In this document: positions 13,781-35,884 of the stretch, one piece after another
How the letters are laid out: each line of letters begins with the position of its first letter
Position numbering within the stretch: the first letter of the stretch is position 1
Origin: Planctomycetales bacterium 10988
GTDB taxonomy: Bacteria; Planctomycetota; Planctomycetia; Pirellulales; Pb10988
Reading direction: 5' to 3'
Assembly (NCBI GenBank): GCA_009664345.1
Contig: CP043547.1
Location: 5,050,709-5,114,708 of the forward strand
DNA: 64,000 nt
The notes under the pieces: model-generated
Seen by the model: the letters and a program-made list of their open reading frames with translations, nothing else
Told to the model about the DNA's origin: nothing
Databases searched by the model: none
Translations under genes and position numbers: made by a program

Positions 13781-13783
13781 TAG

Positions 13784-18414: not shown

Positions 18415-21400
18415 ATGGCATGGCTCTCCTTCTTTTCACACCGTAACGAACGTCACCGACAAGCACTTCTCAAGCAACAAAAAGAGACCCCGCTTCAGCT
18501 CGAATCACTGGAAAGCCGTCATTTATTGGACTCAACTCCATTCTTAATTGACCTGAACCCAATAGCTGAGTTTGATATAAACCTTACCCTATTTACGGGC
18601 GAAAATAACACGGCTTTCTTTAGATTCAATGATGGTTCGACGGGTGCTGAACTTTGGAGAAGTGATGGAACCGAGTTAGGGACCCAACTCGTCAAAGATC
18701 TTTTCCCAGGCCCTCTAAGTTCTGGTCCTTCGAATTTAACACATGTGAATGGGACTCAGTTCTTCTCAGCCTCCGACGGCTCGACGGGCTCTGAGCTTTG
18801 GATGACTGATGGAACTTCTATAGGTACTGCCCTTGTGAAAGATATTCATCCGAATATGTACACCGGTTATTTTTCTGATATTCCCCGAGGTTCTCGTCCA
18901 GAACAGCTTACGAATGTAAACGGAACCCTTTTTTTTACTGCAAATAATGGTACTTCAGGTACGGAACTCTGGATGAGCGATGGAACCGAGGCCGGTACCC
19001 AACTCGTGAGGGATATTAAATCAGGTAGCGATAGCTCCGGCCCCGACAACTTAACGAATGTAAACGGAACCCTTTGTTTTACCGCAAATGATGGTTCCTC
19101 AGGTACGGAAGTCTGGATGAGCGATGGAACCGAGGCCGGTACCCAACTCGTGAGAGATATTAAATCAGGTAGCGATAGCTCCGGCCCCGACAACTTAACG
19201 AATGTAAACGGAACCCTTTATTTTACCGCAAATGATGGTTCCTCAGGTACGGAAGTCTGGATGAGCGATGGAACCGAGGCCGGTACCCAACTCGTGAGAG
19301 ATATTAAATCAGGTAGCGATAGCTCCGGCCCCGACAACTTAACGAATGTAAACGGAACCCTTTATTTTACCGCAAATGATGGTTCCTCAGGTACGGAAGT
19401 CTGGATGAGCGATGGAACCGAGGCCGGTACCCAACTCGTGAGAGATAATAAATCAGGTAGCGATAGCTCCGGCCCCGACAACTTAACGAATGTAAACGGA
19501 ACCCTTTATTTTACCGCAAATGATGGTTCCTCAGGTACGGAAGTCTGGATGAGCGATGGAACGGAGGTCGGTACTCAAATCGTGAGGGATATCCATCAAG
19601 GTGGTATCAGTTCTTTCCCCAGTTATCTAACAAATGTGGATGGAATCCTCTTCTTCCGGGCAATTGATGGCGTGGCGGGTCCTGAAATCTGGATGAGCGA
19701 CGGAACGGAGGTCGGTACCCGATTAGTCAAAGATATTAGGAAAGGCGCTCTAGGCTCCGCCGCCATATTTCTAACGAATGTAAACGGGACCCTTTTCTTC
19801 CGGGCAAATAATGGAATCACTGGTTATGAGCTCTGGAAAAGCGATGGTACCGAGACCGGTACCCAACTCGTCAAGGACCTTCAGCCAAGAACAAAGAATT
19901 CTGGTTCTGAAGAGTTTACCGATGTTAATGGCACGATGTATTTTAGTGCTAGCGATGGAATAAGTGGTAAGGAGCTCTGGAAGAGCAATGGGACCAAAGC
20001 CGGTACCCAGCTAATCAAGGATATTAATATCGATGGAAGTTCTTCTCCCCGCTTTCTAACGAATGTGAATGGGACCTTGTTTTTCGTGGCTGTGGATGGA
20101 AGCATGGGCAGAGAACTCTGGATGAGCGACGGAACGGAGGCCGGTACCCAACTCGTCAAGGACATTCGAGCAGGTAAAGATAGCTCCTTTCCTAGATTTT
20201 TGATCAATGTGAACGGAACCCTCTTCTTCGAGGCTAATAATGGCTCGACAGGGCCTGAACTCTGGATAAGTGATGGGACGGAGGCCGGTACCCAACTCGT
20301 CAAGGACATTCGAGCAGGTAGAGATAGCTCCTCTCCTATTTTTTTTACCAATGTGAACGGAACACTCTTTTTTACCGCAAATGAGGGCGGCTATGGAGCT
20401 GAACTCTGGATGAGCGATGGAACAAGCGAAGGGACTCAACTCGTCAAGGATCTTCTACCAGGCCCTCATGGCTCCGCACCAACCTCACTGATCAATGTGA
20501 ATGGGACCCTCTTCTTCGAAGGTCGTGATAGGTTTACGGTCAACGAGCTTTGGAAGAGCGATGGTACCGAGACCGGTACCCAGCTCGTCAAGGATATTCG
20601 ACCAGGTGAAGGTCAATCTACTCCCCAAGCTCGTGCTGTAGTCAATGGGACCCTCTTTTTTACTGCAAATGATGGATCAACAGGCACGGAATTTTGGAAG
20701 AGTGATGGAACAAGCGAGGGGACGCAACTCATCAAAGATATCCAGGTAGGTATTGGTAGTTCTTTTTCATTTACTACTAACAACTCGTCTTCCAATGTGA
20801 ATGGGACTTTCTTTTTTACCGCAAATGATGGTATCACAGGCACGGAAGTCTGGATGAGCGATGGAACAAGCGGAGGGACCCATCTCGTCAAGGATATTAA
20901 ACCAGGTAGTGATAGTTCCGGTTCCGGGAGGTTTACCAATGTGAATGGGACTCTCTTTTTTACTGCAAATGATGGTTCATTAGGCACGGAACTCTGGATG
21001 AGCGATGGAACAAGCGAAGGGACTCAACTTGTTAAAGATATCCAAGTAGGGAGCAATGGTTCCACTCCTTCTTTTCTTACTAATGTAGATGGAACTCTGT
21101 TCTTCACAGCAAATGATGGCGTCCATGGGTCTGAATTTTGGGTACTCGAATTCGATCCCCCAACGCTTAATATTACTCCCACCAATGTTTTAACGAATGA
21201 CAATGCAATCTCTTTCACCTTTAATTTCTCAGAAGCGATCTTCGAATTTGTTGAAGGTGACATTGAAATCATCGGGGGAATGGGTAGCAACTTCACGATG
21301 GTCGATAGCAACACCTATACTATCGACGTGACTCCATTCTCCGATGGAGCTATTACCGTGAGTGTCGCAGATGAGTTGGCTGAGGATGCATCTACCAATC

Positions 21401-24400
21401 TGCTGATAGGAGATAGTGCAACGATCGAATACGATGGAACTCCTCCCAGCTTGGAAATCTCCCCTGATAGTAGAGCCACAAATGAAGAGGTTCTTCTCTT
21501 TACCTTTGAATTTTCCGAGGATGTCACGGGCTTCGCTACCGATGATGTTGTCGTGGCCAATGGGGCTAAGGGCCTCTTCAGTATGACGGATGGCAATACT
21601 TATACCCTGACAGTGATGCCGTCCAGCGAAGGAGATTTGACCGTCAGTGTTGCTTTTGCAGTTGCCCAAGATGCCGCTGGTAATACCAGCATAGGAGATT
21701 CGGCAACAATCACCCATGATACGACGCCTCCGACGTTGGAAATTACGCCGGATGGCATCGTGACCAATCAGGGATCAACGATCTTCACCTTTCAATTTTC
21801 CGAAGAGGTCACGGGGTTCACGATCGGGGATATTTCCGTCACCAATGGTTTTAAAGGAGATTTCACGGCAGTTGATGGGGATACTTACGAACTGGAAGTC
21901 TTTTCTCCCTGCTCCAGTGGCGATCTGATCGTCACGGTTGCGGATGACGCCGCTTTCGATGGGGCCAGCAATGGCAATCTCGGTGATTCCGCCAAGATTA
22001 CCTATGATAACATCGCCCCGACCTTGGAAATCACGCCGGATGGAACCTCGACGAATGCGAGTTCGACGATCTTTACTTTCCAATTTTCTGAAGCGGTCAC
22101 CGGCTTCACGATCGACGATTTGGTCCTGATGAGCATTGGTCCGAACATAAGCTCTGGTACCTTTACCGCCGTTGATGAAGATACTTATACGTTGGAAGTC
22201 TTTCACTCTAATGGGAACGGCGATGTGATTGTCTCGGTGGGCGATGATGCCGCCTTCGACGAGGCAACCAACGGCAATACCGGTGATTCGGCGACGGTTA
22301 CCTATGACACGATCGGGCCGACCTTGGAAATCACGCCCGATGGGACGATTACCAACCAGGGATCAACGATCTTCACCTTTCAGTTTTCCGAAGGAGTCAC
22401 CGACTTTACGGCCGATGATATGACCTTTGGTGGGGATGTCAATACCAATGGTTTTGTCAGCAAAGGAACCTTCACCGCGGTTGATGAAGATACCTACACC
22501 CTGGAAGTTTTCTACTCCAATGCTAATGGCGAACTAATCGTCACGGTTGCGGATGACGCCGCTTTCGATGAAGCCACCAACGGCAATACCGGCGATTCGG
22601 CCACCATTGAATACGATAGTGTCGCCCCGACGGTTGGGGTCTCGCCGGATAATCAATTGACCAACGTGGCCACGACGGTCTTCACTTTCCAGTTCTCCGA
22701 AGAGGTCTTTGACTTCACCGCCGATGATGTCATGGTAACCAATGGAACGAAGGGCACCTTCACGGCCGTCGATGGCGATACCTATACGCTCGAAGTCACC
22801 GCGATGGCCGATGGCGATGTGATTGTCAACGCTTTGGCCGATGGGGCGATGGACACCGCCGGCAATGGCAATCAGATCGAAAGTGCCACGGTCACCTATG
22901 ACGGCACCGCTCCGACGTTGATCATTACTCCTGATAGCGGCATCACCAACGACGATCCCATCACCTTTACCTTTGAGTTCTCCGAAGAAATCTTTGAGTT
23001 TGTCGAAGGCGATATCGAGATCACCGGCGGAACAGGTGGGAACTTCACCATGGTCGATGGCGATACCTATACCATCGACGTCACGCCGGATGCCGATGGC
23101 GAGATCACCGTCACTGTGGCCGATGAAGGTGCCGAGGATGAAGCCGGGAATTTACTCGTCGGGGATCTGGCTACCATCGAGTACGATGGTACCGCTCCGA
23201 CCTTGGAAATCACGCCTGATAGTGGGGAAAGTAATGACGATCCGATCCTTTTTACGTTCCTCTTTTCCGAAGATGTCACTGGCTTCGATGCTAATGACAT
23301 CATGGTAATGGGTGGAACGGCGGGAACCTTTACGACGATAGATGGGAGTACCTGCACCCTCGAAGTCACGCCAGACGAAGAAGATGGTGATGTGACGGTG
23401 ACGGTCGCCGATGGCGTTGCTCAAGACGCGGCCATGAATGATAACGTCGGCGATTCCGCAACGGTTACTTTCAATGCAACTGAGCCGACTCCCCTGATTG
23501 TCACCGGGACCGATGCCGGAGGACCTGCTACGGTCCGAGTTTTTGATTCTTCAGGCAATGAACTTTTGAGTTTTATGCCGTATGGTGCCTTTACCGGCGG
23601 GGTTCGTGTCGCCACAGGGGATATCAACGGCGATGGGATTCTCGATATCATCACGGCTGCCGGACCAGGCGGCGGGCCGCATGTGCAAGTCTTCGATAGC
23701 CGGACCGGCGAACATATTACAGGCGGACTGAATAATATTTATGCCTATGCCCCCAATGTCACTACCGGGGTCTTTGTCGCTTCAGGGGATGTCAACGGCG
23801 ATGGCTTTGACGATATCATCACGGCTCCCGATGCCGGTGGAGGTCCGCACCTCAAGGTTTATAACGGGCTGACTGGTGACGTGATTACTGAGTTTTATGC
23901 TTATGCCCCCAATGTCACCGTCGGCGTTCGCATCGCCACCGGTGATATCAACGGCGATGGCTTCGCTGAAATCATCACCACTCCCGGACCCGGTGGAGGT
24001 CCCCATGTCCGCGTGATCAACGGCATGACCGGGGAACAGATGCCCGGCCCGGTGACCAACTTTTATGCTTATGCTCCGAACGTGTTAACCGGTCTTTACG
24101 TTGCTTCGGGTGATGTGAATGGTGACGGCTTCGATGACATCATCACTTCCCCCGGTGCCGGTGGCGGTCCTCATGTGCAAGCCTTTAGCTCCGCCGATGG
24201 ATCGACACTTCAGAACTTTTACGCCTATCACCCCAACTTCCTCGGCGGCGTTCGGGTGGGAAGTGCTGACCTCAACCAAGACGGCTTCGCCGACATCATC
24301 ACCGTGCCTGGTTCTTCAGGCGGTCCTCACACCCGAGCTTTCAGCGGCGTCGATCTTTCTGATCTTTCCAACTTCTTCTCCGGACCGCCGACCAACACCG

Positions 24401-24624
24401 ACGGTCTCTTCATCGCGGGAGGAATTAGCTATATTCCGATCGAAGACCCCGCTCCAACCTCGGCACCTTTCACCAGTCCCATGATCGCAGCCAATTCCGA
24501 AACCCCGCAAGATATCACACTCGACGCGCTGGCGAAGAAAAAATCTTGGCAAGACGATGCCGACGAGTTCTTCCAATCCGCCGAAGAGATCGACAAACTC
24601 TTCAGTGGCTTAGGGATTGAGTAG
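18415..24624 (+). CDS. Giant surface protein 1: ELWxxDGT repeats, Ig-like stalk, FG-GAP repeats
   Basis: A 2069-residue modular protein. N-terminus: MAWLSFFSHRNERHRQA then LESLESRHLLD, the planctomycete export-type motif. Residues about 77-907 hold 17 full ELWxxDGT units (TIGR04534; about 48 residues each, NVNGTLFFTANDGSTGTELW type) plus a terminal half unit (EFWVLEF). Residues about 908-1681 are 8 Ig-like domains of the PTLEITPDG...FTFQFSE type. Residues about 1690-2000 hold 5 FG-GAP/VCBS-like units with Ca-binding-type DxNxDG loops (GDINGDGILDIIT). The tail KKKSWQDDADEFFQSAEEID with KLFSGLG ends the protein. No LPXTG or PEP-CTERM is present. Role is likely adhesion or cell surface; ligand unknown. 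Units 4-7 are nearly identical at DNA level. Confidence 0.9.
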   Translation: MAWLSFFSHRNERHRQALLKQQKETPLQLESLESRHLLDSTPFLIDLNPIAEFDINLTLFTGENNTAFFRFNDGSTGAELWRSDGTELGTQLVKDLFPGPLSSGPSNLTHVNGTQFFSASDGSTGSELWMTDGTSIGTALVKDIHPNMYTGYFSDIPRGSRPEQLTNVNGTLFFTANNGTSGTELWMSDGTEAGTQLVRDIKSGSDSSGPDNLTNVNGTLCFTANDGSSGTEVWMSDGTEAGTQLVRDIKSGSDSSGPDNLTNVNGTLYFTANDGSSGTEVWMSDGTEAGTQLVRDIKSGSDSSGPDNLTNVNGTLYFTANDGSSGTEVWMSDGTEAGTQLVRDNKSGSDSSGPDNLTNVNGTLYFTANDGSSGTEVWMSDGTEVGTQIVRDIHQGGISSFPSYLTNVDGILFFRAIDGVAGPEIWMSDGTEVGTRLVKDIRKGALGSAAIFLTNVNGTLFFRANNGITGYELWKSDGTETGTQLVKDLQPRTKNSGSEEFTDVNGTMYFSASDGISGKELWKSNGTKAGTQLIKDINIDGSSSPRFLTNVNGTLFFVAVDGSMGRELWMSDGTEAGTQLVKDIRAGKDSSFPRFLINVNGTLFFEANNGSTGPELWISDGTEAGTQLVKDIRAGRDSSSPIFFTNVNGTLFFTANEGGYGAELWMSDGTSEGTQLVKDLLPGPHGSAPTSLINVNGTLFFEGRDRFTVNELWKSDGTETGTQLVKDIRPGEGQSTPQARAVVNGTLFFTANDGSTGTEFWKSDGTSEGTQLIKDIQVGIGSSFSFTTNNSSSNVNGTFFFTANDGITGTEVWMSDGTSGGTHLVKDIKPGSDSSGSGRFTNVNGTLFFTANDGSLGTELWMSDGTSEGTQLVKDIQVGSNGSTPSFLTNVDGTLFFTANDGVHGSEFWVLEFDPPTLNITPTNVLTNDNAISFTFNFSEAIFEFVEGDIEIIGGMGSNFTMVDSNTYTIDVTPFSDGAITVSVADELAEDASTNLLIGDSATIEYDGTPPSLEISPDSRATNEEVLLFTFEFSEDVTGFATDDVVVANGAKGLFSMTDGNTYTLTVMPSSEGDLTVSVAFAVAQDAAGNTSIGDSATITHDTTPPTLEITPDGIVTNQGSTIFTFQFSEEVTGFTIGDISVTNGFKGDFTAVDGDTYELEVFSPCSSGDLIVTVADDAAFDGASNGNLGDSAKITYDNIAPTLEITPDGTSTNASSTIFTFQFSEAVTGFTIDDLVLMSIGPNISSGTFTAVDEDTYTLEVFHSNGNGDVIVSVGDDAAFDEATNGNTGDSATVTYDTIGPTLEITPDGTITNQGSTIFTFQFSEGVTDFTADDMTFGGDVNTNGFVSKGTFTAVDEDTYTLEVFYSNANGELIVTVADDAAFDEATNGNTGDSATIEYDSVAPTVGVSPDNQLTNVATTVFTFQFSEEVFDFTADDVMVTNGTKGTFTAVDGDTYTLEVTAMADGDVIVNALADGAMDTAGNGNQIESATVTYDGTAPTLIITPDSGITNDDPITFTFEFSEEIFEFVEGDIEITGGTGGNFTMVDGDTYTIDVTPDADGEITVTVADEGAEDEAGNLLVGDLATIEYDGTAPTLEITPDSGESNDDPILFTFLFSEDVTGFDANDIMVMGGTAGTFTTIDGSTCTLEVTPDEEDGDVTVTVADGVAQDAAMNDNVGDSATVTFNATEPTPLIVTGTDAGGPATVRVFDSSGNELLSFMPYGAFTGGVRVATGDINGDGILDIITAAGPGGGPHVQVFDSRTGEHITGGLNNIYAYAPNVTTGVFVASGDVNGDGFDDIITAPDAGGGPHLKVYNGLTGDVITEFYAYAPNVTVGVRIATGDINGDGFAEIITTPGPGGGPHVRVINGMTGEQMPGPVTNFYAYAPNVLTGLYVASGDVNGDGFDDIITSPGAGGGPHVQAFSSADGSTLQNFYAYHPNFLGGVRVGSADLNQDGFADIITVPGSSGGPHTRAFSGVDLSDLSNFFSGPPTNTDGLFIAGGISYIPIEDPAPTSAPFTSPMIAANSETPQDITLDALAKKKSWQDDADEFFQSAEEIDKLFSGLGIE
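18959..19570 (+). repeat. 144-bp tandem repeats within gene 1
   Basis: Nearly identical units spaced exactly 144 bases (48 codons) apart; the landmark GATAGCTCCGG falls at 19030, 19174, 19318 and 19462. They encode successive ELWxxDGT units. One unit has a single change turning RDIKSG into RDNKSG. This is a recent tandem amplification. Confidence 0.88.
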
Positions 24625-24853
24625 AAAAGCTCAAAAGCTGACACTTTCAACAAGATTCGAGCAAGGTCCTTCTCTGATAGGGAGGGGCCTTGCTTTTGAT
24701 TGGCACGTTCCCTTCCTTCTCTAGTTCAGCTCCATGACAGGCAAAGTGGCTCTGAGTCTGGGGTAGTTCAGAAGCCCTAAAGTGTAAGCTATATATCCAC
24801 TTATCCAATCAGTTAAATTTGGATAGAATTTAATACCTTTATAAACATAATGC
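24625..24853. other. Spacer between ELWxxDGT genes 1 and 2
   Basis: No gene. A probable terminator for gene 1 lies at about 24660-24697: AAGGTCCTTCTC, a short loop, then GGAGGGGCCTTGCTTTTGATT, an imperfect G+C stem followed by T-rich sequence. The remainder leads into the promoter at 24854. Confidence 0.5.
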
Positions 24854-24882
24854 TTTACCTGCTAGGCATTTTTGGGTATAGA
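24854..24882 (+). promoter_or_regulatory. Promoter of ELWxxDGT gene 2
   Basis: TTTACC (24854-24859), 17-base spacer, TATAGA (24877-24882), followed 64 bases later by the ATG, as for genes 1 and 3. The spacer sequence differs more than between genes 1 and 3. Confidence 0.7.
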
Positions 24883-24946
24883 AAAGAGGTAATTTAGATA
24901 CCCGCTCTCTCAATACTATCCTTTCTTCGGGGCAAGAATCGAACTC

Positions 24947-27900
24947 ATGGCATGGCTCTCCTTCTTTTCACACCGTAACGAACGTCACCGACAAGCTCGT
25001 CTCCACCAGCAAAAAGAGACACCGCTACAGCTTGAATCACTGGAACAACGTCATCTTTTAACTGCACAACCTTTCCTCATTGACATCAACCAATCTGGGT
25101 TTTCGTCCAGTATCAATGAGGTAACAGAAATCGACGGGTCGCTTTTCTTTGGGGCAAACGATGGCTCGGCGGGTTCTGAGCTTTGGATAAGCGATGGCAC
25201 AAGCGCCGGAACCCAACTCCTTAAGGATATTTATCCTGGCTTGCGAGGTTCCTATCTCAGATATCTTACGAATGTGAATGGGAGCTTGTTTTTTATCGCT
25301 AACGATAGTTCGACCGGCCATGAGCTTTGGATGACTGATAGAACAGAGGTAGGGACTCAACTCGTCAAGGATATCGCCCCCGGCTCTGAAAGTGCTTTTC
25401 CATTTGGGCTAAACCTTAGACCAACCAATTTGAATGGGACCCTGTTTTTTAGTGCGAATGATGGCTTGACAGGTAACGAGCTTTGGAGAAGTGATGGGAC
25501 AGAAGTAGGGACTCAACTTGTTAAGGACCTCCGTTCAGGTGCCAGTGGTTCTTATCCCAAAAATTTAACGAATGTAAATGGAACTTTGTTTTTCCAATCT
25601 GGGGATAGCTCGACGGGTTATGAGCTTTGGAGAAGTGACGGGACCGAGGGCGGCACTCAACTTGTCAAAGATATTCTCCCCGGCTCCAGTCATTCCTATC
25701 CCCAATATTTAACCAATGTGAACGGGACGTTGTTTTTTAGTGCGAATGATGGCTCGACCGGCATCGAGCTTTGGATGAGTGATGGCTCCGAGGCCGGAAC
25801 CCAACTTGTCAAGGATATCTACACAGGATCCAATGGTGCTTCTCCTGAAGAGCTGGAAAATTTGAATGGGACGTTGTTTTTTAGTGCGAATGATGGCTCG
25901 ACCGGCATCGAGCTCTGGATGAGTGATGGGACCGAGGCCAGAACCCAACTTGTCAAGGATATTCTCTCTGGTTCTGGCAACGCTTCTCCCAAGTATTTAA
26001 CTAATTTAAATGGCACCCTCTTCTTCAGTGCCGATAATGGTTCGACCGGCTCTGAGTTTTGGAGGAGTAACGGAACCGAGGCCGGGACACAACTTATTAA
26101 AGATATCCGTCCTGGCTCTGGTGGTTCTTCTATCAAATATCTAACGGACGTAGACGGAACGGTGTTTTTCCGAGCCGGAGATGGCTCGACGGGGTATGAA
26201 CTTTGGAAAAGTAACGGTGCCGGGGCTGGCACGCAACTCGTCAAGAATCTTCGCCATGGCTCTATTAGTTCCTTTCCTAGCCTGCTAACGAATTTGAATG
26301 GAACACTCTTCTTTAGTGCAAATGATGGTTCGACGGGTTTTGAACTTTGGGAGAGTGATGGGACCGATGTCGGAACCCAACTCGTTAGGAACATTCACAC
26401 TGGTACTACAAATTCTAATCCATCTCAATTGACCGATGTGGATGGAATCTTGTTTTTCGTCGCCTATAATTTCTCCACGGGCCGGGAGCTTTGGAGAAGT
26501 AATGGAACCGAGGCCGGAACCCATCTCGTCAGGGATATTTTCACTGGTACTGGTGCTTCTACTCCCGAGGGTTTGACCAATGTGGATGGAACATTGTTTT
26601 TCGTCGCCTATGACTATTTTAACTTAACAGGCAGGGAGCTTTGGAGAAGTGACGGGACCGAGGCCGGAACCCAACTTGTCAAGGATATTCTTCCCGGCTT
26701 TAGCGATTCTTCTCCCTTTGAGCTGACGAATGTGAGCGGAACCTTATTCTTCGGCGCGAATGACGGCTCTGCAGGTAATGAGCTTTGGATGAGTGATGGG
26801 ACCGAGGCCGGCACGCAGCTTGTCAAGGATCTCTTCATCGGTTCCAACCATGCCTATCCCCAATATTTAACGAACTTGAATGGAACACTCTTCTTCCGTG
26901 CCAATGATGGCTCGACAGGTGACGAGCTTTGGATGAGTGATGGGACAGAAGTAGGGACACAACTTGTTAAGGACATCCGTTCAGGTACCAATGGTTCTTA
27001 TCCCAAAAATTTAACGAATGTAAATGGAACTTTGTTTTTCCAATCTGGGGATAGCTCGACGGGTTATGAGCTTTGGAGAAGTGACGGGACCGAGGGCGGC
27101 ACTCAACTTGTCAAAGATATTCTCCCCGGCTCCAGTCATTCCTATCCCCAATATTTAACCAATGTGAACGGGACGTTGTTTTTCCGTGCGAACGATGGCT
27201 CAACACGTAACGAGCTTTGGATGAGTGATGGGACAGAAGCAGGCACCCAACTCGTCAAGAATCTCCGCTTCAGTTCCAGCGATGCTTCCCCCCAGGAGCT
27301 AACGAACTTGAATGGGACCTTATTCTTCAGTGCCAATGGTGACTCGACGGGAGAAGAGCTTTGGATGAGTAACGGAACGGAAGCAGGCACCCAACTCGTC
27401 AAAGATATCCGCCCTGGCTTCAGAGGCTCCAATCCCTATGGATTGAAGAATTTGAATGGAACATTATTCTTCCGTGCCAATGATGGCTCGACAAGTGACG
27501 AGCTTTGGATGAGTGACGGAACGGAAGCAGGCACCCAACTCGTTAAGGACATCCGCCCTGGCTCCAGCAGTTCCGTTCCTCGGCTGTTGACAAACGTAAA
27601 CGGTACGCTTTTCTTTCGTGCCAATGATGGCTTCTATGGGCACGAGCTTTGGGCGCTGGAATTCGATCCTCCTATCTTAGAAATCACGCCCGATGGCGGC
27701 ATCACCAATGACGATCCGATCACCTTCACCTTGGAGTTCTCAGAAGAGATTTTTGAGTTCATCGAAGGCGATATCATGATCACCGGCGGGGTCGGCAGTA
27801 ATTTCACCATGGTCGATGGCGATACTTATACGATCGATGTCACGCCGGATGCCGATGGCGATATCACCGTCAGCGTTGCCGACGATGCCGCCGAGGACGA

Positions 27901-29404
27901 GGCCGGGAATCTCCTCATCGGCGACAGTGCAACCATCGAATACGACGGAACCGCCCCGATGCTGGACATCACGCCAGATGGTGGGGAAAGTAATGATGAT
28001 CCGATCACGTTTACCTTTGTCTTTTCCGAGGATGTGACTGGTTTTGATGCCGGCGACATCATGGTGACCGGAGGAACGTCAGGAACCTTTACGACGATAG
28101 ATGGGAGTACCTACACCCTGGAAGTCATGCCCAACGCCGAAGAAACCGATGTGACCGTGACAGTTGCTGATGGAGCCGCTCAAGACGCGGCCATGAATGA
28201 CAATCTCGGCGATTCGGCAACGGTTACCTACAACACCATTGATGAAACCCCATTAATCGTCACCGCGACCGCTGCCATCACGGACCCTGAAGAGTTCTCC
28301 GTTGTGCGGGTCTTCGATCTAGACGGCAATGAGCTTCTCAATTTTGCCCCCTATTCGGAGAGCTATCAAGGAGCGATTCGCATCGCCACCGGGGATATCA
28401 ATGGCGATGGCATCCTTGAAATCGTGACGGCTGCCGGCCCTGGCGGAGGTCCCCACGTCAAAGTCTATGACAGCCAAACCGGTGAGCTGATAACGGGCCC
28501 AGTTACTGAATTCTATGCTTATCATCCGGACTTTGCCGGAGGGGTCTTTGTGACCGTCGGCGATGTGAATAACGACGGCTACGACGATATTATCACCGGG
28601 GCCGATGCCGGAGGAGGGCCGCATGTGCGGGTCTTCAGTGGGCAAGATGGAACCATGCTGGGCGAATTTTATGCCTATGATGTGGACTTCAGTGGCGGCG
28701 TTCGAGTGGCTGCCGGCGACATCAACGATGACGGCATGGCCGAAGTCATCACCGGGGCCGGAGCCGGCGGCGGACCGCATATTCGGGTCTTTGATGGAAA
28801 CGTTTCCAACAGCTTCCCGATCCTGGGAGTAGCGACCGACTTCTACGCCTACGATTTCATGTTCCTCGGCGGAGTCTTTGTGGCTTCGGGCGATGTGAAT
28901 GACGATGGCCACGCCGATATTATCACTGCTCCCGATGCCAGTGGTGGTCCGCACGTCAAGGTCTTTAGCTCCGAGGATGGTTCACTTTTACATAACTTCT
29001 ATGCCTATGACGAAGCCTTCCTCGAAGGCGTTCGCATCGCTTCCGCCGACCTCAATCAAGATGGCTTTGCCGACATCCTGACGGCTCCCGGCACGTTTGG
29101 CGGTCCCCACATACGGGCCTTCAGTGGAACCGATCTTTCCGACATCGCCAACTTCTTCTCCGGTTCTCCAACCGATAACGGTGGCCTCTTCATCGCCGGA
29201 GGAATTAGCTACCTCCCCGTGGAAGACCCCGTTCCTACCTCGGCACCTCTCTCTAGTCCGGTCATTGCTTCAAACCCTGATAACCCAGAAGACATCACAC
29301 TCGATAACTTGCAAAAGAAAAAATCCTGGCAAGACGATGCCGAGGAATTCTTCCAATCCGCCGAAGAAATCGACAAGCTCTTCAGTGGGTTGGGTATGAA
29401 GTAG
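24947..29404 (+). CDS. Giant surface protein 2: ELWxxDGT repeats, short Ig-like stalk, FG-GAP repeats
   Basis: A 1485-residue paralogue of the genes at 18415 and 29687, with the same N-terminal segment and LESLEQRHLLT motif. Residues about 75-900 contain 17 full ELWxxDGT units plus a terminal half unit (HELWALEF). Only two Ig-like domains follow (about 902-1095: PILEITPDGGITND and PMLDITPDGGESND), against eight in the other two proteins. Five FG-GAP-like units (GDINGDGILEIVT, GDVNNDGYDDIIT and so on) cover about 1100-1430. It ends with KKKSWQDDAEEFFQSAEEID and KLFSGLG. The length difference from its paralogues therefore lies almost wholly in the stalk. A 189-base segment is exactly duplicated inside it. 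Probably exported and surface-attached. Confidence 0.9.
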   Translation: MAWLSFFSHRNERHRQARLHQQKETPLQLESLEQRHLLTAQPFLIDINQSGFSSSINEVTEIDGSLFFGANDGSAGSELWISDGTSAGTQLLKDIYPGLRGSYLRYLTNVNGSLFFIANDSSTGHELWMTDRTEVGTQLVKDIAPGSESAFPFGLNLRPTNLNGTLFFSANDGLTGNELWRSDGTEVGTQLVKDLRSGASGSYPKNLTNVNGTLFFQSGDSSTGYELWRSDGTEGGTQLVKDILPGSSHSYPQYLTNVNGTLFFSANDGSTGIELWMSDGSEAGTQLVKDIYTGSNGASPEELENLNGTLFFSANDGSTGIELWMSDGTEARTQLVKDILSGSGNASPKYLTNLNGTLFFSADNGSTGSEFWRSNGTEAGTQLIKDIRPGSGGSSIKYLTDVDGTVFFRAGDGSTGYELWKSNGAGAGTQLVKNLRHGSISSFPSLLTNLNGTLFFSANDGSTGFELWESDGTDVGTQLVRNIHTGTTNSNPSQLTDVDGILFFVAYNFSTGRELWRSNGTEAGTHLVRDIFTGTGASTPEGLTNVDGTLFFVAYDYFNLTGRELWRSDGTEAGTQLVKDILPGFSDSSPFELTNVSGTLFFGANDGSAGNELWMSDGTEAGTQLVKDLFIGSNHAYPQYLTNLNGTLFFRANDGSTGDELWMSDGTEVGTQLVKDIRSGTNGSYPKNLTNVNGTLFFQSGDSSTGYELWRSDGTEGGTQLVKDILPGSSHSYPQYLTNVNGTLFFRANDGSTRNELWMSDGTEAGTQLVKNLRFSSSDASPQELTNLNGTLFFSANGDSTGEELWMSNGTEAGTQLVKDIRPGFRGSNPYGLKNLNGTLFFRANDGSTSDELWMSDGTEAGTQLVKDIRPGSSSSVPRLLTNVNGTLFFRANDGFYGHELWALEFDPPILEITPDGGITNDDPITFTLEFSEEIFEFIEGDIMITGGVGSNFTMVDGDTYTIDVTPDADGDITVSVADDAAEDEAGNLLIGDSATIEYDGTAPMLDITPDGGESNDDPITFTFVFSEDVTGFDAGDIMVTGGTSGTFTTIDGSTYTLEVMPNAEETDVTVTVADGAAQDAAMNDNLGDSATVTYNTIDETPLIVTATAAITDPEEFSVVRVFDLDGNELLNFAPYSESYQGAIRIATGDINGDGILEIVTAAGPGGGPHVKVYDSQTGELITGPVTEFYAYHPDFAGGVFVTVGDVNNDGYDDIITGADAGGGPHVRVFSGQDGTMLGEFYAYDVDFSGGVRVAAGDINDDGMAEVITGAGAGGGPHIRVFDGNVSNSFPILGVATDFYAYDFMFLGGVFVASGDVNDDGHADIITAPDASGGPHVKVFSSEDGSLLHNFYAYDEAFLEGVRIASADLNQDGFADILTAPGTFGGPHIRAFSGTDLSDIANFFSGSPTDNGGLFIAGGISYLPVEDPVPTSAPLSSPVIASNPDNPEDITLDNLQKKKSWQDDAEEFFQSAEEIDKLFSGLGMK
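25547..25735 (+). repeat. 189-base internal duplication in gene 2 (copy a)
   Basis: Identical by eye to 26993-27181, offset 1446 bases (482 codons), encoding the unit with FQSGDSSTGYELWRSDGTEG. It keeps the reading frame and repeat phase. Confidence 0.85.
26993..27181 (+). repeat. 189-base internal duplication in gene 2 (copy b)
   Basis: Second copy of 25547-25735. Flanking units differ, so this looks like a segmental copy or gene conversion and not simple tandem expansion. Confidence 0.85.
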
Positions 29405-29593
29405 GCTCTCTTTGTATGATTTTCTAATTTATGGAGTCGTCTAAAGCCCCCTTTCGGACCAAGAGGCTCCACTTACCTTCTTTGTTACCGAGTTGGGTTT
29501 ATACGGAACTCCCCATTAGAGGTGTCTGGATAACCACTTAAATCCTGGTAGTTATCGATAGTATTCACAAGACTACTTCACTTAAAAACCTGC

Positions 29594-29622
29594 TTTACCA
29601 ACTAGTTGTTTTAGGGTATACT
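29594..29622 (+). promoter_or_regulatory. Promoter of ELWxxDGT gene 3
   Basis: TTTACC (29594-29599), 17-base spacer, TATACT (29617-29622). The spacer is nearly the same as that of gene 1 (AACTAGTYGTTTTAGRG), and the distance to the ATG is the same. Confidence 0.75.
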
Positions 29623-29686
29623 GAACTTCTAATCCAGACACTCCTCCTCTCAATACTATCCTTTCTTCGGGGCAAGAATCGAACTC

Positions 29687-32600
29687 ATGGCATGGCTCTC
29701 CTTCTTTTCACACCGTAACGAACGTCACCAACAAGCACTTCTCAAGCAACTAAAAGAGACCCCACTTCAGCTCGAATCATTAGAACAACGCTGCTTGTTG
29801 ACTTCCGATCCTTTCATAATCGATATCAATCAAATCGGGAGTCCCTCCGAGATTGAGGAGCTAACGGAGGTCAATGGAACACTCTTCTTTTCAGCCAATG
29901 ATGGAACTTATGGAAGAGAACTCTGGAAAAGCGATGGGACAAGTGCGGGAACTCAGATAGTTAAGATTTTCAGCCCAGCGAATGATACTACTAATTTGAG
30001 AAGATTGACGAATGTTAATGGAACTCTATTCTTTAGTGCCAATGATGGAGTTCATGGCAGTGAATTGTGGATGAGCAACGGTTTCAGTGAAGGCACCGTG
30101 CTTGTGAAGGACATAGATCCTGCGATAGAAGTTGGATTTGGTCCTCAGCAATTGACGAATGTGAACGGAACTCTGTTTTTTACTATTTCAGATGGCGTAT
30201 CAGGGCATGAACTATGGATGAGCGACGGAACGAGTACCGGAACCCAACTTGTCAATGATACTACACCTGGAAGGGGTGGTTCACCCCACTTTGAGTTCAC
30301 GAATGTGAATGGTTCGTTGTTCTTTGTAACAAACGATGGCTCGGTAGGATACGAGCTTTGGGTTAGCGATGGGACTAGCTCTGGGACTCAACTTGTGAAA
30401 GATATCTATCCTGGGAAAGCGTTCTCTTCTGTTGAAAACCTGGCAAACGTCAACGGCACACTTTTCTTCACTGCAGATGATGGATCGACCGGAGAAGAGC
30501 TTTGGATAAGCGATGGAACAAGTTATGGAACTCAATTGGTCAGAGATATTCGGGCTGGTAATTCAAACGCTTCACCTGCTAATCTTTTTAATTTGAACGG
30601 AACACTATTTTTCAGTGCATATGATGACGAACATGGTCGTGAACTTTGGATAAGCGATGGGACAAGTACTGGTACTCAACTCGTCAAAAATATTGATTAT
30701 ACTAGTGCTAGCTCTTCTCCTAGATATCTGACAAATGTAAATGGCATTTTATATTTTAATGGAAGAGAACAACTTTGGAAAAGTGATGGAACAAGTGAGG
30801 GGACTCAGCTTGTTACAGACATTCGATCAACGATTTATCCTCCTCCTTTCAATAGCCCCCTCAGCCCCAAGCACCTTACCGAAGTTAATGGGACATTATT
30901 CTTTCAGGCAAATGGCGGAACAACGGGTGTTGAACTATGGATGAGCGATGGGACGTCTACCGGAACTGTGCTTGTCAAAGATATCTTCAGTGGAGAGCAT
31001 GGATCAAATCCATTTCGACTTACGAATGTCAATGGGAATCTATTTTTTCGGGCAAACAATCGCACCTCCGAAGAAGAACTATGGAGAAGTGATGGAACAA
31101 GTGACGGAACAAATCTTGTCAGAGATATCAATATAACCGGTACGATAGGTTCAAATCCCAAAAAGTTTATAGAAGTTGGCAGTTTGAGTTACTTCATTGC
31201 ATCTACGACTGATGCCGGGGAAGAGTTATGGGTAAGTGATGGAACACAGGGCGGAACCCGACTTGTCAAGGATATCCGTCCTGGATCAGTTGGCTCTTCA
31301 CCAAGAGATCTTACGAATGTAGAAGGGACATTATTTTTTCAAGCTCGCGATAGATCTCACGGCTATGAATTATGGATGAGCGATGGAACATTAGAGGGAA
31401 CCCAACTTGTCAAAGAAATTCTTCCAAGTAGTAACTCGTTACTCAGCTCTTTCACGGAAGTCAGTGGGAATCTGTTCTTTTTAGCAAATGACGGGTCGAC
31501 TGGTACCGAATTGTGGATAAGTAATGGAACCGAAAATGGCACAATACTCGTTAAAGACTTACATGCTGGTAGAGTTGGAGGATACCCCCAATTTCTGACC
31601 AATGTAAACGGGACACTATTCTTCGTTGCATCCGATGGTTCATCAGGTACCGAAGTCTGGAAGAGCGATGGAACAAGTGTCGGTACCCAGCTTCTCAAAG
31701 ATCTTGAGTTTGGTATCCTGAGTTCTAACCCTGAATATCTGGTCAATGTGAATGGAACCTTATTTTTCGAAGCATTTGAAGAATTATGGATTAGTGACGG
31801 AACCAGTGAAGGTACGAATTTTCTCAAGGATATAGAAATTGGCAGTTTCTCTCCAAGGTATTTAACAAACGTAAATGGCACGTTGTTTTTCTCTGCCTAT
31901 AAGTCTGGTGAGGGACGCGAACTTTGGATGAGTGACAGTACTAGCGCTGGCACCCAACCCGTCAAAGATATCCGCCTAGGTAGTAGTAGTTCCTCCCCTC
32001 GGGAGCTTATGAATGTAAATGGCACATTGTTTTTCTGGGCTAGTATAGATAGAGATGATGATGACCTCTGGATGAGCGATGGTACCAGTGCGGGCACTCA
32101 ACGTTTCACTGATTTTTTAGGAAATAGATTCTCCAATCCCACAGAAGTAAAGAATGTAAATAGGACGTTATTTTTCCGAGCGAGTGATGGCTCGAATGGC
32201 GAAGAACTTTGGATGAGTAACGGAACCGAGGCCGGAACTCAACTTGTTAAAGATATTCGCCTTGGCTCTAGTTCAAACCCAAAATATCTGACCAATGCGA
32301 ATGGAACCTTGTTCTTCCAAGCCAATGATGGCTTGCATGGTACGGAAGTTTGGGTTTTGGAAGATACGGAAGCCCCGACGCTGGAGATTACCCCGGATGG
32401 TGGGGCCACCAACGGCAGTCCGATTACGTTTACTTTCCAGTTCTCGGAGTTTGTGTTTAACTTCGAGGATTTTGATATTATAGTCACTGGGGGAGCCAAG
32501 GGGTCCTTTACCACCATCGATCAAGATACCTTTACACTTGGAGTTCTCCCACTCACTGAAGGGTTGATCACGGTTAGTGTGGCTGACGATGCCGCCGAGG

Positions 32601-35600
32601 ATTTTGTCGGTAATCTCAGTGCCTCTGCGATGGCCTCCATCGAATACGACACGACGGCTCCGACTCCGACGGTCACGCCGGATAATTTGTTGACGAATAA
32701 CCCTTCGATCCTCTTTACCATTCAATTCGACGAAGAGGTTTTTGATTTTGCCGCCAATGATGTGATGGTCATCAATGGCAGCAAGGGCACCTTCACGGCG
32801 GTTGATGGCGATACCTATACCCTGCAAGTCACCGCCGGGGTCGATGGGGATGTGATCGTGAATGTCGCGGCCAATGGGGCGATGGACGCCGCCGGCAATG
32901 GCAATGCAGCCAGCAGTGCCACGGTCACCTATGACGGGACCGCTCCGACTTTGGACATTACCCCCGATGCAATCGCGACCAATGACAACCCGATCACATT
33001 TACGTTCGAGTTCTCCGAAGACGTTGTCGGTTTCACGATCGACGACATTGCGGTGATCGGCGGATCAAAAGGAACACTGATGATGATCGATGGCAACACC
33101 TACACCCTCGATGTCACCCCGAGTGGGGAGGGAAATCTTATTGTCGCGGTGGAGGATGGGTTTGCCGCTGATGCCGCCGGGAATTCTTTGGTCGGTGACG
33201 GGGTGATCGTCGAATATGACAGCATCGCGCCGACGTTAACGATCACGCCCGATGGACTCGTGACGAATCTCAACTCGACGATCTTTACGTTCCAGTTCTC
33301 CGAAGCGGTCACGGGGTTCACCATCGATGATGTTTTCCTCTCGAATGGTACGAAAGGGGTCTTTACTCCGGTCGATGGCGACACGTACGAACTCGAGGTC
33401 TTCTCGCCTTGCTCCAGCGACGACATCATTATTGCGGTGTTGGATGATGCGGCTGACGATGCGGCTGGAAATGGAAACATCGGCGATTCGGCAACCATCA
33501 CCTTTGATAATATCGCCCCAACTCTGGAAATAACGCCGGATGGGATCGCGACCAATCAGGGAATGACAACCTTTACGTTCCAGTTCTCCGAAGGGGTCAC
33601 GGGTTTCACCGCTGATGATGTGACCTTTGGTGGGGACGTCAATACTTTTGGGTTTGTCAGCAAAGGAACCTTCACTGCGGTCGATGAAGATACCTACACC
33701 CTGGAAGTTTTCTATTCCAATGCCAATGGCGACTTGATTATCGAGGTCGCCGATGATGCGGCTGTCGATGAGGCCACCAACGGGAATACCGGCGATTCCG
33801 CAACCATCACTTATGATAATGTCGCCCCAACTCTTGAAATCACGCCCGATGGCACCGCGACCAATCAAGGTTCGACGGTCTTTACTTTCCAGTTCTCCGA
33901 AGGGGTTACCGGCTTCATGATCGACGATGTGGACCTGATGAGTAGTGGTCCGAATATAAGCACCGGCACTTTAACCGCCGTCGATGAAGATACTTATACC
34001 TTGGAAGTTTTTCACTCCAATGGGAACGGCGATGTAATCGTCTCGGTCTCCGCTGACGAGGCTTTCGATGCGGCGGGCAATGGGAATACCAGCGATTCGG
34101 CCACCATTACTTTTGATGACATCGCCCCGACCTTGATGATCACCCCAGAAAATATTTCCACCAACGAGAATCCGATCACCTTTACCTTTGAATTCTCCGA
34201 AGAAATCTTCGAGTTTGTCGAAGGCGATATCGTGATCACCGGCGGGGTTAGCAGTAATTTCACCATGGTCGATGGCGATACTTATACGATCGATGTCACA
34301 CCGGATGCCGATGGCGATATCACGGTCACTGTCGCCGACGATGCCGCCGAGGACGAGGCCGGGAATTTACTCCTCGGAGATATGGCGACCATCGAGTATG
34401 ACGGCACCGCTCCGACCTTGGAAATCACGCCCGATGGTGGAGAAAGCAACAACGATCCGATTATCTTTACGTTCCTCTTTTCTGAAGATGTCACCGGTTT
34501 TGATTCCAGCGATATTATGGTAGTAGGGGGAACGGCAGGAACCTTTACAACCGTCGATGACCACCTCTACACCCTGGAAGTCACTCCAGACGAAGAAGAT
34601 GGTGATGTGACGGTGACGGTGGCTGATGGCGTGGCTCAAGACGCGGCCATGAATGATAACGTCGGCGATTCCGCAACGGTTACTTTCAATGCCACCGAAC
34701 CAACGCCGCTCATTGTCACCGGGACCGATGCCGGAGGCCCTGCTACGGTTAGGGTCTTTGATCCTTCCGGCAATGAACTTTTGAGTTTCATGCCTTATGG
34801 AGCTTTTACGGGCGGGGTTCGTGTCGCCACCGGGGACATCAACGGAGATGGTATTCTCGATATCATTACGGCTGCCGGACCAGGCGGAGGCCCGCATGTT
34901 CAGGTCTTCGATAGCGAAACCGGCCAGCTTATTACCGGCGGTCTCAACAACTTTTATGCCTATGCACCGAATGTCACCACCGGGGTCTTCGTCGCGGTGG
35001 GCGATGTTAATAACGATGGGTACGACGACATCATCACTGCTCCCGATGCTGGCGGAGGTCCGCACTTAAAAGTCTATGACGGGCTGACCGGCGATGTGAT
35101 TACCGAGTTCTACGCCTACGCCCCCAATGTCACCGTCGGCGTTCGTATCGCCACCGGAGATATCAACGGCGATGGTTTCGCTGAAATCATCACGACTCCT
35201 GGTCCCGGTGGCGGCCCGCATGTCCGCGTGATCAACGGCATGACCGGCGAGCAGATGCCCGGCCCGGTGACCAACTTTTATGCTTATGCACCGAATGTTT
35301 TGACTGGCCTTTACGTTGCATCGGGCGATGTGAATGGCGATGGCTTCGACGACATCATCACCTCACCCGGTGCCGGTGGTGGCCCGCATGTGCAAGCCTT
35401 TAGTTCCGCGGATGGTTCAACGCTTCAGAACTTTTACGCCTATCACCCTGCCTTCGTCGGTGGTGTTCGTGTCGGAAGTGCGGACTTAAACCAAGATGGC
35501 TTTGAAGATATCATTACCGTCCCAGGCTCTTCCGGCGGTCCTCACACCCGTGCTTTCAGCGGCGTGGATCTCGCGGACCTTTCCAACTTCTTTTCTGGTT

Positions 35601-35884
35601 CGCCGACCAATACCGACGGCCTCTTAATCGCGGGAGGAATAAGTTTTCTTCCAGTAGAAGACCCCTTTACGATGACAGCGCAATTTTCTAGACAATTAAC
35701 ATCTGACAGTGTCGACAATTTAAACACTTTAAAATCTGACACTTCTGACACTATAGAAAATGTCAATGCTGACACATTCAAACCAAAGAAAAGTTGGTAT
35801 GACGAAGTCGATGAATTTTATCAATCCTCAGAAAAAATTGATAAATTGTTTAGCGGTTTGGGCATTGATTCAGCAGTTTCCTGA
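29687..35884 (+). CDS. Giant surface protein 3: ELWxxDGT repeats, Ig-like stalk, FG-GAP repeats
   Basis: A 2065-residue paralogue with the same N-terminal segment and LESLEQRCLLT. Residues about 75-890 contain 17 full ELWxxDGT units plus a terminal half unit (TEVWVLED); these units are more divergent from each other than those of genes 1 and 2. Residues about 890-1670 are 8 Ig-like domains, and 1675-1990 hold 5 FG-GAP-like units. From the last Ig-like domains to the FG-GAP end it is almost the same as gene 1 at both DNA and protein level. The end differs: a Ser/Thr/Asp-rich insertion (SDSVDNLNTLKSDTSDT) precedes the shared tail (KKSWYDEVDEFYQSSEKIDK, LFSGLG) and five extra residues follow. 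Probable exported surface protein; ligand unknown. Confidence 0.9.
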   Translation: MAWLSFFSHRNERHQQALLKQLKETPLQLESLEQRCLLTSDPFIIDINQIGSPSEIEELTEVNGTLFFSANDGTYGRELWKSDGTSAGTQIVKIFSPANDTTNLRRLTNVNGTLFFSANDGVHGSELWMSNGFSEGTVLVKDIDPAIEVGFGPQQLTNVNGTLFFTISDGVSGHELWMSDGTSTGTQLVNDTTPGRGGSPHFEFTNVNGSLFFVTNDGSVGYELWVSDGTSSGTQLVKDIYPGKAFSSVENLANVNGTLFFTADDGSTGEELWISDGTSYGTQLVRDIRAGNSNASPANLFNLNGTLFFSAYDDEHGRELWISDGTSTGTQLVKNIDYTSASSSPRYLTNVNGILYFNGREQLWKSDGTSEGTQLVTDIRSTIYPPPFNSPLSPKHLTEVNGTLFFQANGGTTGVELWMSDGTSTGTVLVKDIFSGEHGSNPFRLTNVNGNLFFRANNRTSEEELWRSDGTSDGTNLVRDINITGTIGSNPKKFIEVGSLSYFIASTTDAGEELWVSDGTQGGTRLVKDIRPGSVGSSPRDLTNVEGTLFFQARDRSHGYELWMSDGTLEGTQLVKEILPSSNSLLSSFTEVSGNLFFLANDGSTGTELWISNGTENGTILVKDLHAGRVGGYPQFLTNVNGTLFFVASDGSSGTEVWKSDGTSVGTQLLKDLEFGILSSNPEYLVNVNGTLFFEAFEELWISDGTSEGTNFLKDIEIGSFSPRYLTNVNGTLFFSAYKSGEGRELWMSDSTSAGTQPVKDIRLGSSSSSPRELMNVNGTLFFWASIDRDDDDLWMSDGTSAGTQRFTDFLGNRFSNPTEVKNVNRTLFFRASDGSNGEELWMSNGTEAGTQLVKDIRLGSSSNPKYLTNANGTLFFQANDGLHGTEVWVLEDTEAPTLEITPDGGATNGSPITFTFQFSEFVFNFEDFDIIVTGGAKGSFTTIDQDTFTLGVLPLTEGLITVSVADDAAEDFVGNLSASAMASIEYDTTAPTPTVTPDNLLTNNPSILFTIQFDEEVFDFAANDVMVINGSKGTFTAVDGDTYTLQVTAGVDGDVIVNVAANGAMDAAGNGNAASSATVTYDGTAPTLDITPDAIATNDNPITFTFEFSEDVVGFTIDDIAVIGGSKGTLMMIDGNTYTLDVTPSGEGNLIVAVEDGFAADAAGNSLVGDGVIVEYDSIAPTLTITPDGLVTNLNSTIFTFQFSEAVTGFTIDDVFLSNGTKGVFTPVDGDTYELEVFSPCSSDDIIIAVLDDAADDAAGNGNIGDSATITFDNIAPTLEITPDGIATNQGMTTFTFQFSEGVTGFTADDVTFGGDVNTFGFVSKGTFTAVDEDTYTLEVFYSNANGDLIIEVADDAAVDEATNGNTGDSATITYDNVAPTLEITPDGTATNQGSTVFTFQFSEGVTGFMIDDVDLMSSGPNISTGTLTAVDEDTYTLEVFHSNGNGDVIVSVSADEAFDAAGNGNTSDSATITFDDIAPTLMITPENISTNENPITFTFEFSEEIFEFVEGDIVITGGVSSNFTMVDGDTYTIDVTPDADGDITVTVADDAAEDEAGNLLLGDMATIEYDGTAPTLEITPDGGESNNDPIIFTFLFSEDVTGFDSSDIMVVGGTAGTFTTVDDHLYTLEVTPDEEDGDVTVTVADGVAQDAAMNDNVGDSATVTFNATEPTPLIVTGTDAGGPATVRVFDPSGNELLSFMPYGAFTGGVRVATGDINGDGILDIITAAGPGGGPHVQVFDSETGQLITGGLNNFYAYAPNVTTGVFVAVGDVNNDGYDDIITAPDAGGGPHLKVYDGLTGDVITEFYAYAPNVTVGVRIATGDINGDGFAEIITTPGPGGGPHVRVINGMTGEQMPGPVTNFYAYAPNVLTGLYVASGDVNGDGFDDIITSPGAGGGPHVQAFSSADGSTLQNFYAYHPAFVGGVRVGSADLNQDGFEDIITVPGSSGGPHTRAFSGVDLADLSNFFSGSPTNTDGLLIAGGISFLPVEDPFTMTAQFSRQLTSDSVDNLNTLKSDTSDTIENVNADTFKPKKSWYDEVDEFYQSSEKIDKLFSGLGIDSAVS

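Follow-up and report, generated by a model that had tools for sequence, protein, structure and literature searches.

Layout of the three ELW proteins

Three giant genes in a 64,000-nucleotide stretch of the genome of Planctomycetales bacterium 10988 (contig CP043547.1, positions 5,050,709 to 5,114,708, forward strand; "the window", numbered from its first letter) were analysed with respect to the ELWxxDGT repeats (ELW units) that they encode. The open reading frames (ORFs) lie in tandem on the + strand and encode proteins of 2069, 1485 and 2065 amino acids (genes 1 to 3; P0001, P0002 and P0003), the first residues of which are almost alike. Each protein consists of an ELW array, a stalk of immunoglobulin-like (Ig-like) domains, an FG-GAP domain and a C-terminal tail. 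In the following list the arrays are divided into two predicted rings of nine units, with a putative closing strand at the N-terminus; the ring limits were taken from a structure model and alignment for gene 2 and transferred from the P0002 model for genes 1 and 3, the units of which were located with TIGR04534 and the motif.

18415..24624, +: gene 1 (P0001, 2069 aa), with two predicted ELW rings, eight Big_12 domains, FG-GAP domain and C-terminal tail (ORF, Pfam, NCBIfam)
18493..18528, +: gene 1, planctomycete extracellular motif (Pfam Planc_extracel, residues 27-38, below cut-off)
18535..19890, +: gene 1, N-terminal closing strand and ELW units 1-9 (predicted ring 1)
18903..19592, +: gene 1, recent 144-bp tandem amplification (tandem-repeat and unit identity comparison)
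19891..21150, +: gene 1, ELW units 10-18 (predicted ring 2; last unit without fourth strand)
21151..23478, +: gene 1, stalk of eight Big_12 Ig-like domains (Pfam)
23488..24486, +: gene 1, FG-GAP domain, five Pfam repeats
24535..24621, +: gene 1, conserved C-terminal tail (by eye)
24947..29404, +: gene 2 (P0002, 1485 aa; ORF, Pfam, NCBIfam)
25067..26404, +: gene 2, N-terminal closing strand and predicted ring 1 (ELW units 1-9; model residues 1-446)
26405..27661, +: gene 2, predicted ring 2 (ELW units 10-18; model residues 447-865)
27662..28234, +: gene 2, stalk of two Big_12 domains (Pfam)
28247..29266, +: gene 2, FG-GAP domain, five Pfam repeats (Pfam, profile comparison)
29315..29401, +: gene 2, conserved C-terminal tail (by eye)
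29687..35884, +: gene 3 (P0003, 2065 aa; ORF, Pfam, NCBIfam)
29804..31138, +: gene 3, N-terminal closing strand and predicted ring 1 (ELW units 1-9)
31139..32365, +: gene 3, predicted ring 2 (ELW units 10-18)
32366..34690, +: gene 3, stalk of eight Big_12 domains (Pfam)
34703..35716, +: gene 3, FG-GAP domain, five Pfam repeats
35777..35881, +: gene 3, conserved C-terminal tail (by eye)
36841..37311, +: fourth, cut-short paralogue (156 aa) with N-terminal motif, closing strand, two ELW units and a stop

In an initial annotation, made from the letters of the DNA, each protein had been credited with 17 complete ELWxxDGT units and a terminal half unit, with 8, 2 and 8 Ig-like domains, and with five FG-GAP-like units, and these numbers were borne out. 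The motif count gave 17 complete units and a terminal half (EFWVLEF, ELWALEF or EVWVLED) per protein, and 18 stretches in each were matched by TIGR04534 of NCBIfam (expectation value (E) 0, 0 and 5.4e-289; 1074, 1103 and 932 bits for P0001, P0002 and P0003, all above the curated cut-off of 65 bits). From Pfam, 8, 2 and 8 Big_12 Ig-like domains and five FG-GAP repeats in each protein (74.4, 69.6 and 75.8 bits; cut-off 22.1) were obtained, and the counts do not differ between the proteins beyond the stalk; with a hidden Markov model (HMM) built in this study, the FG-GAP counts were 6, 5 and 5. Pfam Planc_extracel (PF07595) scored below its cut-off of 25.5 bits in P0001 (11.7) and P0002 (14.9) and is absent from the Pfam listing of P0003, yet the N-terminal motif there still reads LQLESLEQRCLL. 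Other Pfam names strewn over the ELW arrays (DUF5980, TBSV_P22, NorB and others) were discounted as chance repeat matches.

Proposed closure of the repeat array

Each window array opens with a lone strand (FLIDL, FLIDI or FIIDI) that resembles the LVKDI strand of the unit, and the last unit of each array is devoid of an LVKDI-like strand. Most likely the lone N-terminal (FLIDIN-like) strand supplies the missing half, so that the array amounts to 18 blades, that is 9+9. Both features recur in most of the other arrays that were read. Permuted ends (no lone first strand, complete last unit) were met in L118:1118-3814 (Sulfurovum) and L081:5160-8306 (same order); these arrays keep 18 and 9 units, respectively, as would be expected if the array ends meet.

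The ELW region of P0002 (residues 41-910) was modelled with AlphaFold2 from a 51-row alignment (48 of 54 references found, plus the three window arrays). The model (predicted local distance difference test (pLDDT) 93.9, predicted template modelling score 0.79) has four strands per unit. The top VIA-align matches were the designed propellers Cake10 (Z 23.5) and Cake9 (Z 22.5), followed by a match with Z 17.7; they were aligned over 335/360 and 333/359 residues (root-mean-square deviation (rmsd) 3.5) on model residues 12-432, which correspond to units 1-9, and further rows fall within model residues 447-866. As the best matches are closed propellers, the fold is predicted to be a beta-propeller, with four-stranded blades around a closed ring. 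Of a Foldseek search with the two-ring model, the 50 matches listed were mostly multi-propeller or large single-propeller proteins (query template modelling score 0.15-0.29) and were not used for kinship. The reading preferred here, with a probability of about 0.87, is that each window protein carries two tandem nine-bladed beta-propellers, a ring being closed by nine units of about 48 residues. The figure of nine blades is reached indirectly, from the quanta of the unit counts, the position of a linker after unit 9, a period of nine and the model range 12-432 on Cake9/10; rings of eight blades are suggested in the same manner. The closed structure that the initial annotation had proposed for the array is thus supported in its propeller fold, with the 18 units most likely forming two nine-bladed rings instead of the one ring for which a structural check had been suggested.

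The boundary between the rings can be traced in several ways. In all eight linker proteins of planctomycete metagenome-assembled genomes (MAGs; isolate BJ22 with seven, HKST-UBA31 with one), 43-44 extra residues stand exactly after unit 9. In 56 uninterrupted 18-unit arrays the mean score of unit 9 is 58, against 67-74 for units 2-8 and 10-16, and in 53 of the 65 18-unit arrays from other genomes, a set that includes the linker arrays, unit 9 scores less than the remaining inner units do on average (Wilcoxon 4.5e-9, relatedness not corrected). Over the same 65 arrays the identity between units falls with distance and climbs again at offset 9. Eight 16-unit arrays of the own genome (two of them near-copies) show the rise at offset 8, with unit 8 as the weakest inner unit, and in the 27-unit array L080 units 9, 18 and 27 are the three weakest.

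As to how the rings are closed, 6 of the 50 VIA-align rows begin at model residue 1-2 and end at 865-870, and in each of them about 300 residues match a single propeller. These rows suggest that the N-terminal strand lies in ring 2 and that ring 1 comprises nine complete blades; in the model, that strand would complete the last blade of ring 2, and ring 1 would sit between the strand and the rest of ring 2. In agreement with this, 0.80 of the 56 uninterrupted arrays retain the ELWxxDG hairpin behind unit 9, compared with 0.04 at unit 18. The alternative within the two-ring reading, that each ring closes on a strand of its own, is disfavoured by the joined rows and by this hairpin, and is placed clearly below even odds. 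It draws on the linker proteins, in which by reading unit 9 ends much like a terminal unit and the strand after the linker resembles the protein's own N-terminal strand; in all eight, ring 2 thereby restarts, and a separate closing strand seems to be present for each ring.

Unit counts were determined in the own genome (6.65 Mb, one contig), in which at least 239 matches to gene 2 were found. From the matches listed, 36 stretches were taken and translated in all frames, and ELW units were counted with HMMs built in this study; all own-genome counts apply to the matches listed, and some paralogues may be missing. An array was present in 53 ORFs of 200 aa or longer, from which four broken ones were excluded (two frames of L050; L052; L057). 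The 156-aa fragment at 36841 lies below the length limit, and L071 was set to 15 units by reading (script: 14). The 49 intact arrays carry 8 (4 arrays), 9 (20), 15 (1), 16 (8), 17 (5), 18 (10) or 19 (1) units; 24 of them have 8-9 units, 25 have 15-19, and none has 10-14. The count is therefore quantal and not fixed at seventeen and a half, as had been supposed from the three window proteins, given the 8-9-unit paralogues here and the 26-27-unit proteins elsewhere. A quick tree was built from 47 C-terminal regions, and proteins with one ring and with two are intermixed in it. Parsimony requires 14 changes of ring number (shuffled labels gave a mean of 15.8, and 111 of 500 shuffles reached so low a value), well-supported branches force at least five changes, and 20 of 44 inner branches are without resolution. 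Judged by these sequences, the size classes do not correspond to two old clades; as paralogues may recombine, the tree does not by itself demonstrate separate ring duplications. L050 is itself a paralogue with a frameshift inside the array, its units lying in two overlapping frames. Downstream of the 156-aa fragment, to position 39200, no further clear ELW, Ig or FG-GAP match was found; a DDE transposase is encoded at 13713-14705 (+), about 3.7 kb upstream of the cluster.

Relatives in other genomes were counted in three samples. In genomes of the same order (loci L077-L096), 20 clear arrays have 9 (11), 18 (5), 6, 17, 26 and 27 units (one each), to which a further reading adds 9, 18 and 18; eight degenerate arrays were left uncounted (five in L092, one in L094, two in L096). 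The second array of L079 was set to 6 (script: 7), L082 and L095 were relieved of a spurious first match, one gap was filled in L086, and L088 was completed by reading. For the named genomes, the best 80 of 382 relatives were kept (79 loci, 12 named phyla, two loci without a phylum). Seven of 89 array pieces were cut, broken or masked and were left out (two ORFs of L109; the second array of both L120 and L126; L155; L165; L167), so that 82 arrays in 75 of the 79 loci remained. Counts were raised by reading from 17 to 18 (L103, L131, L145, L147, L169, L174, L175), from 18 to 19 (L140) and from 15 to 16 (L159), a spurious first match was removed from L138, and one gap was filled in L153; the eight linker arrays were entered with the 18 units detected, as the script adds one for the long gap. 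Among these best 80 relatives, 75 of the 82 intact arrays have 18 units, the others 19 (4), 16, 22 and 27 (one each). A less biased sample consisted of ORFs from single-unit matches listed in 12 of the named genomes. Ten ORFs of Pyxidicoccus fallax gave 18 six times (one with a filled gap) and 9 twice (each with a filled gap), two being unclear; three further ORFs of Runella aurantiaca gave 18 (one filled gap), 9, and 18 or 19. The same reading also gave 18, 9, 18 and 18 units for L189, L191, L192 and L193. L187 and L188 were unclear, L195 was omitted as possibly cut, and two Runella arrays duplicate L163. The counts of relatives are thus clustered at 9 and 18 and do not vary freely, though with exceptions. 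Two arrays deserve mention for their own sake. In L133:5893-10551, from a Bacteroidetes MAG, two copies of a four-unit block are identical in sequence, owing either to recent duplication or to an assembly error; L079:5286-14921 is a 3212-aa frame with a nine-unit array, a spacer and the second array of six units only.

The number of units is held while the units themselves are exchanged. The recent tandem amplification claimed for gene 1 was recovered with a period of 144 bp, 4.8 copies and 96% match, and units 3 to 6 of the gene share 97.9-100% DNA identity with the units next to them. When the three window genes are compared in pairs, a unit has its best partner at the same index in 1, 3 and 1 of 17 cases, and same-index units are hardly more alike than others (identity 0.60/0.59, 0.54/0.53 and 0.55/0.52). 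A test for positional descent of the units from gene to gene was negative. After the genes separated, units were copied or overwritten, the count nevertheless being 18 in all three; such turnover at constant count is the best argument for selection on the count rather than a frozen count.

Against this background, an open solenoid whose count was merely inherited from one ancestor is very improbable: the window genes are indeed tandem duplicates with near-identical N-termini and related FG-GAP regions, but their same-index units show little special likeness, gene 1 has been freshly amplified and still counts 18, 9 and 18 recur in other phyla, and the predicted model matches propellers. A single giant ring of all 18 units, for which the uninterrupted arrays of the window and the prevalence of 18 among the named loci could be cited, is more improbable still in view of the 9-unit proteins and 26-27-unit arrays, the linkers after unit 9 and the superposition of model units 1-9 on designed nine-bladed rings (rmsd 3.5). 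Rings of another size, such as three six-bladed ones, have just as little chance. Six does divide 18, and one six-unit array exists (L079), but the frequent counts of 8, 9, 16 and 17 cannot be divided by six, all eight linkers follow unit 9 and none follows unit 6 or 12, and the periodicity is 9, or 8 in 16-unit arrays.

Two nine-bladed rings remain the preferred reading, and the following points weigh against it. The fold is a prediction, and the make-up of the rings was read from alignment ranges. A sequence search of the PDB gave no match for P0001, and the ELW profile reached E 0.029 or worse. In the 27-unit array L097, units 9 and 27 are weak and unit 18 is not, and the ten 18-unit arrays of the own genome show a weak value at offset 9, below offsets 11-12. 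Exceptional counts are 6 (L079, second array), 15 (L071), 16, 17, 19 (L061, L137, L140, L149, L157), 22 (L133) and 26 (L078). The named loci were ranked by their match to an 18-unit query, whereby long arrays were favoured and short ones poorly sampled; this ranking gives no preference for 18 over 20 or 24. The tree behind the comparison of one-ring and two-ring proteins is quick and has many unresolved forks. In the units of relatives, mean entropies (bits) are 2.71 for strand A, 2.66 for the da loop, 2.56 for the bc loop and 2.57 for strand D, and lower for the ab loop (1.75), the cd loop (1.88), strand B (1.92) and strand C (1.99); own-genome entropies are biased, the units having been picked by motif. 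The bc and da loops of propellers sit on one face, which may be a binding face of higher variability across from the conserved DGTxxGT turns, but the variability of strands A and D is as high. Because of the results for L097 and strand D, confidence in the main statement was slightly lowered.

A mechanism of the following kind is proposed. The 48-residue unit would form a four-stranded blade, and nine blades would close the ring; a ring with the wrong blade number would close badly, which would act as a filter on amplification. Units would duplicate, get lost and be overwritten, with arrays kept mostly near one, two or three full rings, and the ELWxxDGT rings of a protein appear to number one, two or three; eight blades, and in some cases ten, seem to form a ring as well. 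The closure constraint would not apply to the Ig stalk. That the repeat appears to close nine-bladed rings explains why its number is held beside a freely varying stalk.

Stalk, FG-GAP domain and putative role

Across the 49 intact paralogues, 0-12 Ig-like domains were found with the study's own HMM, and 5 or 6 FG-GAP repeats in 47, with none in the other two (matches listed). The view that the stalk is variable in length was upheld in this larger set, the ELW and FG-GAP parts not varying freely, and at the level of sequence fixed ends with a variable stalk appear to hold across the family. The strict GDxNxDG motif is less steady (0-6 in the FG-GAP part), and the steady FG-GAP number consequently rests on the HMM counts and not on the motif. 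By profile comparison the C-terminal FG-GAP region matches integrin alpha-V (E 5e-6). Five Pfam repeats each, plus end strands, were found where an integrin-type FG-GAP propeller would have seven blades, and the region is filed only as an FG-GAP repeat domain. A model of the C-terminal Ig/FG-GAP part from a three-row alignment (pLDDT 42.9) was unusable, and nothing was concluded from it. The C-terminal region was matched at E 0.001 in 15 of 38 other genomes of the same order, the best matches having E 1e-48 (residues 20-220 of 385) and 7e-42 (22-376).

After the FG-GAP domain, a strongly conserved tail of about 28 residues with an LFSGLGI-like end was recognised by eye in 55 of 56 own-genome ORFs with the domain (exception L055), and it is also present on own-genome ORFs without ELW units. 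It is possibly a sorting or anchoring signal, through which the protein may be anchored or sorted. In L055 (G000:C1:437823-438833), a 7563-aa open frame contains the match to the C-terminal FG-GAP region.

Regarding function, about even odds are given to exported surface binding proteins, the rings of which would bind ligands, with Ig-like domains of varying number as the link to the integrin-like FG-GAP domain. The likeliest role, putative and with a chance of about one half, would be that of an adhesin or surface receptor with an Ig stalk. More tentatively, and a little below even odds, ELWxxDGT proteins may be a widespread class of tandem nine-bladed propellers with interlocked closure (the chain start completing the last ring, the first ring threaded between), the blades of which are constantly copied and lost with the count held at whole rings; one genome would then run about fifty surface receptors built on a common chassis, with different numbers of rings and stalks of different length.

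The ELWxxDGT repeat has so far been known by its motif only. If nine units form a ring, a sequence label becomes a structural unit, construct boundaries become clear, and a natural series (8, 9, 16-18, 26-27) is at hand for studying how blade number is retained during amplification. According to PMC9218822, propeller amplification proceeds without a counting system, yet mature lineages prefer certain blade numbers; the question of retention is raised there for propellers in general, and the ELW series addresses it. The planctomycete family, with at least about fifty intact members differing in ring number and stalk length, would in addition serve as a test bed for the diversification of surface proteins.

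Comparison with known systems

In the literature searched, no description of ELWxxDGT, the ELW repeat or TIGR04534 was found, papers on nine-bladed propellers (judged by title) were not concerned with it, and the terms planctomycet, ELW and hyalin are absent from the available text of PMC9218822. Taken singly, the repeat family, tandem propellers and nine-bladed rings are known; no work that combines them was found in the literature searched. The ELW fold may already be visible in databases of predicted structures of cellular proteins. TIGR04534, to which all 18 units of each window protein belong above the curated cut-off, describes a single 47-residue repeat, whereas the nine-blade ring and the quanta of 9, 18 and 27 are proposed here.

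Among natural proteins, propellers of the S9 peptidase/DPP4 and BamB types are the best structural matches (Z about 14-18), and some ELW members have weak Pfam matches to PQQ_2, Peptidase_S9_N and FAM234 propellers. Those propellers usually have seven or eight blades; they are unrelated to ELW in sequence at the level tested, and are enzymes or assembly factors. The integrin alpha FG-GAP propeller has seven blades (PMC3192720), as opposed to the five repeats plus end strands of the window domain that matches its profile.

WRAP of Nostoc punctiforme (PDB 2YMU) is described in PMC6805158 as a recently amplified 14-blade array that forms two propellers in one chain. It belongs to the WD40 family and is organised as 7+7, whereas the ELW arrays belong to another repeat family, are organised as 9+9 according to the reading preferred here, and were found at loci in 12 phyla. 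The closest structural matches of all, Cake9 and Cake10 (PDB 6tjh and 6tji; Z 22.5-23.5), differ from the ELW proteins in being artificial, symmetric by design and confined to one ring, with 12-13% identity to the ELW model. Cake9 is nine-bladed and folds as eight blades too when given eight repeats (PMC8458387), and this behaviour resembles the natural spread of ELW arrays between eight and nine.

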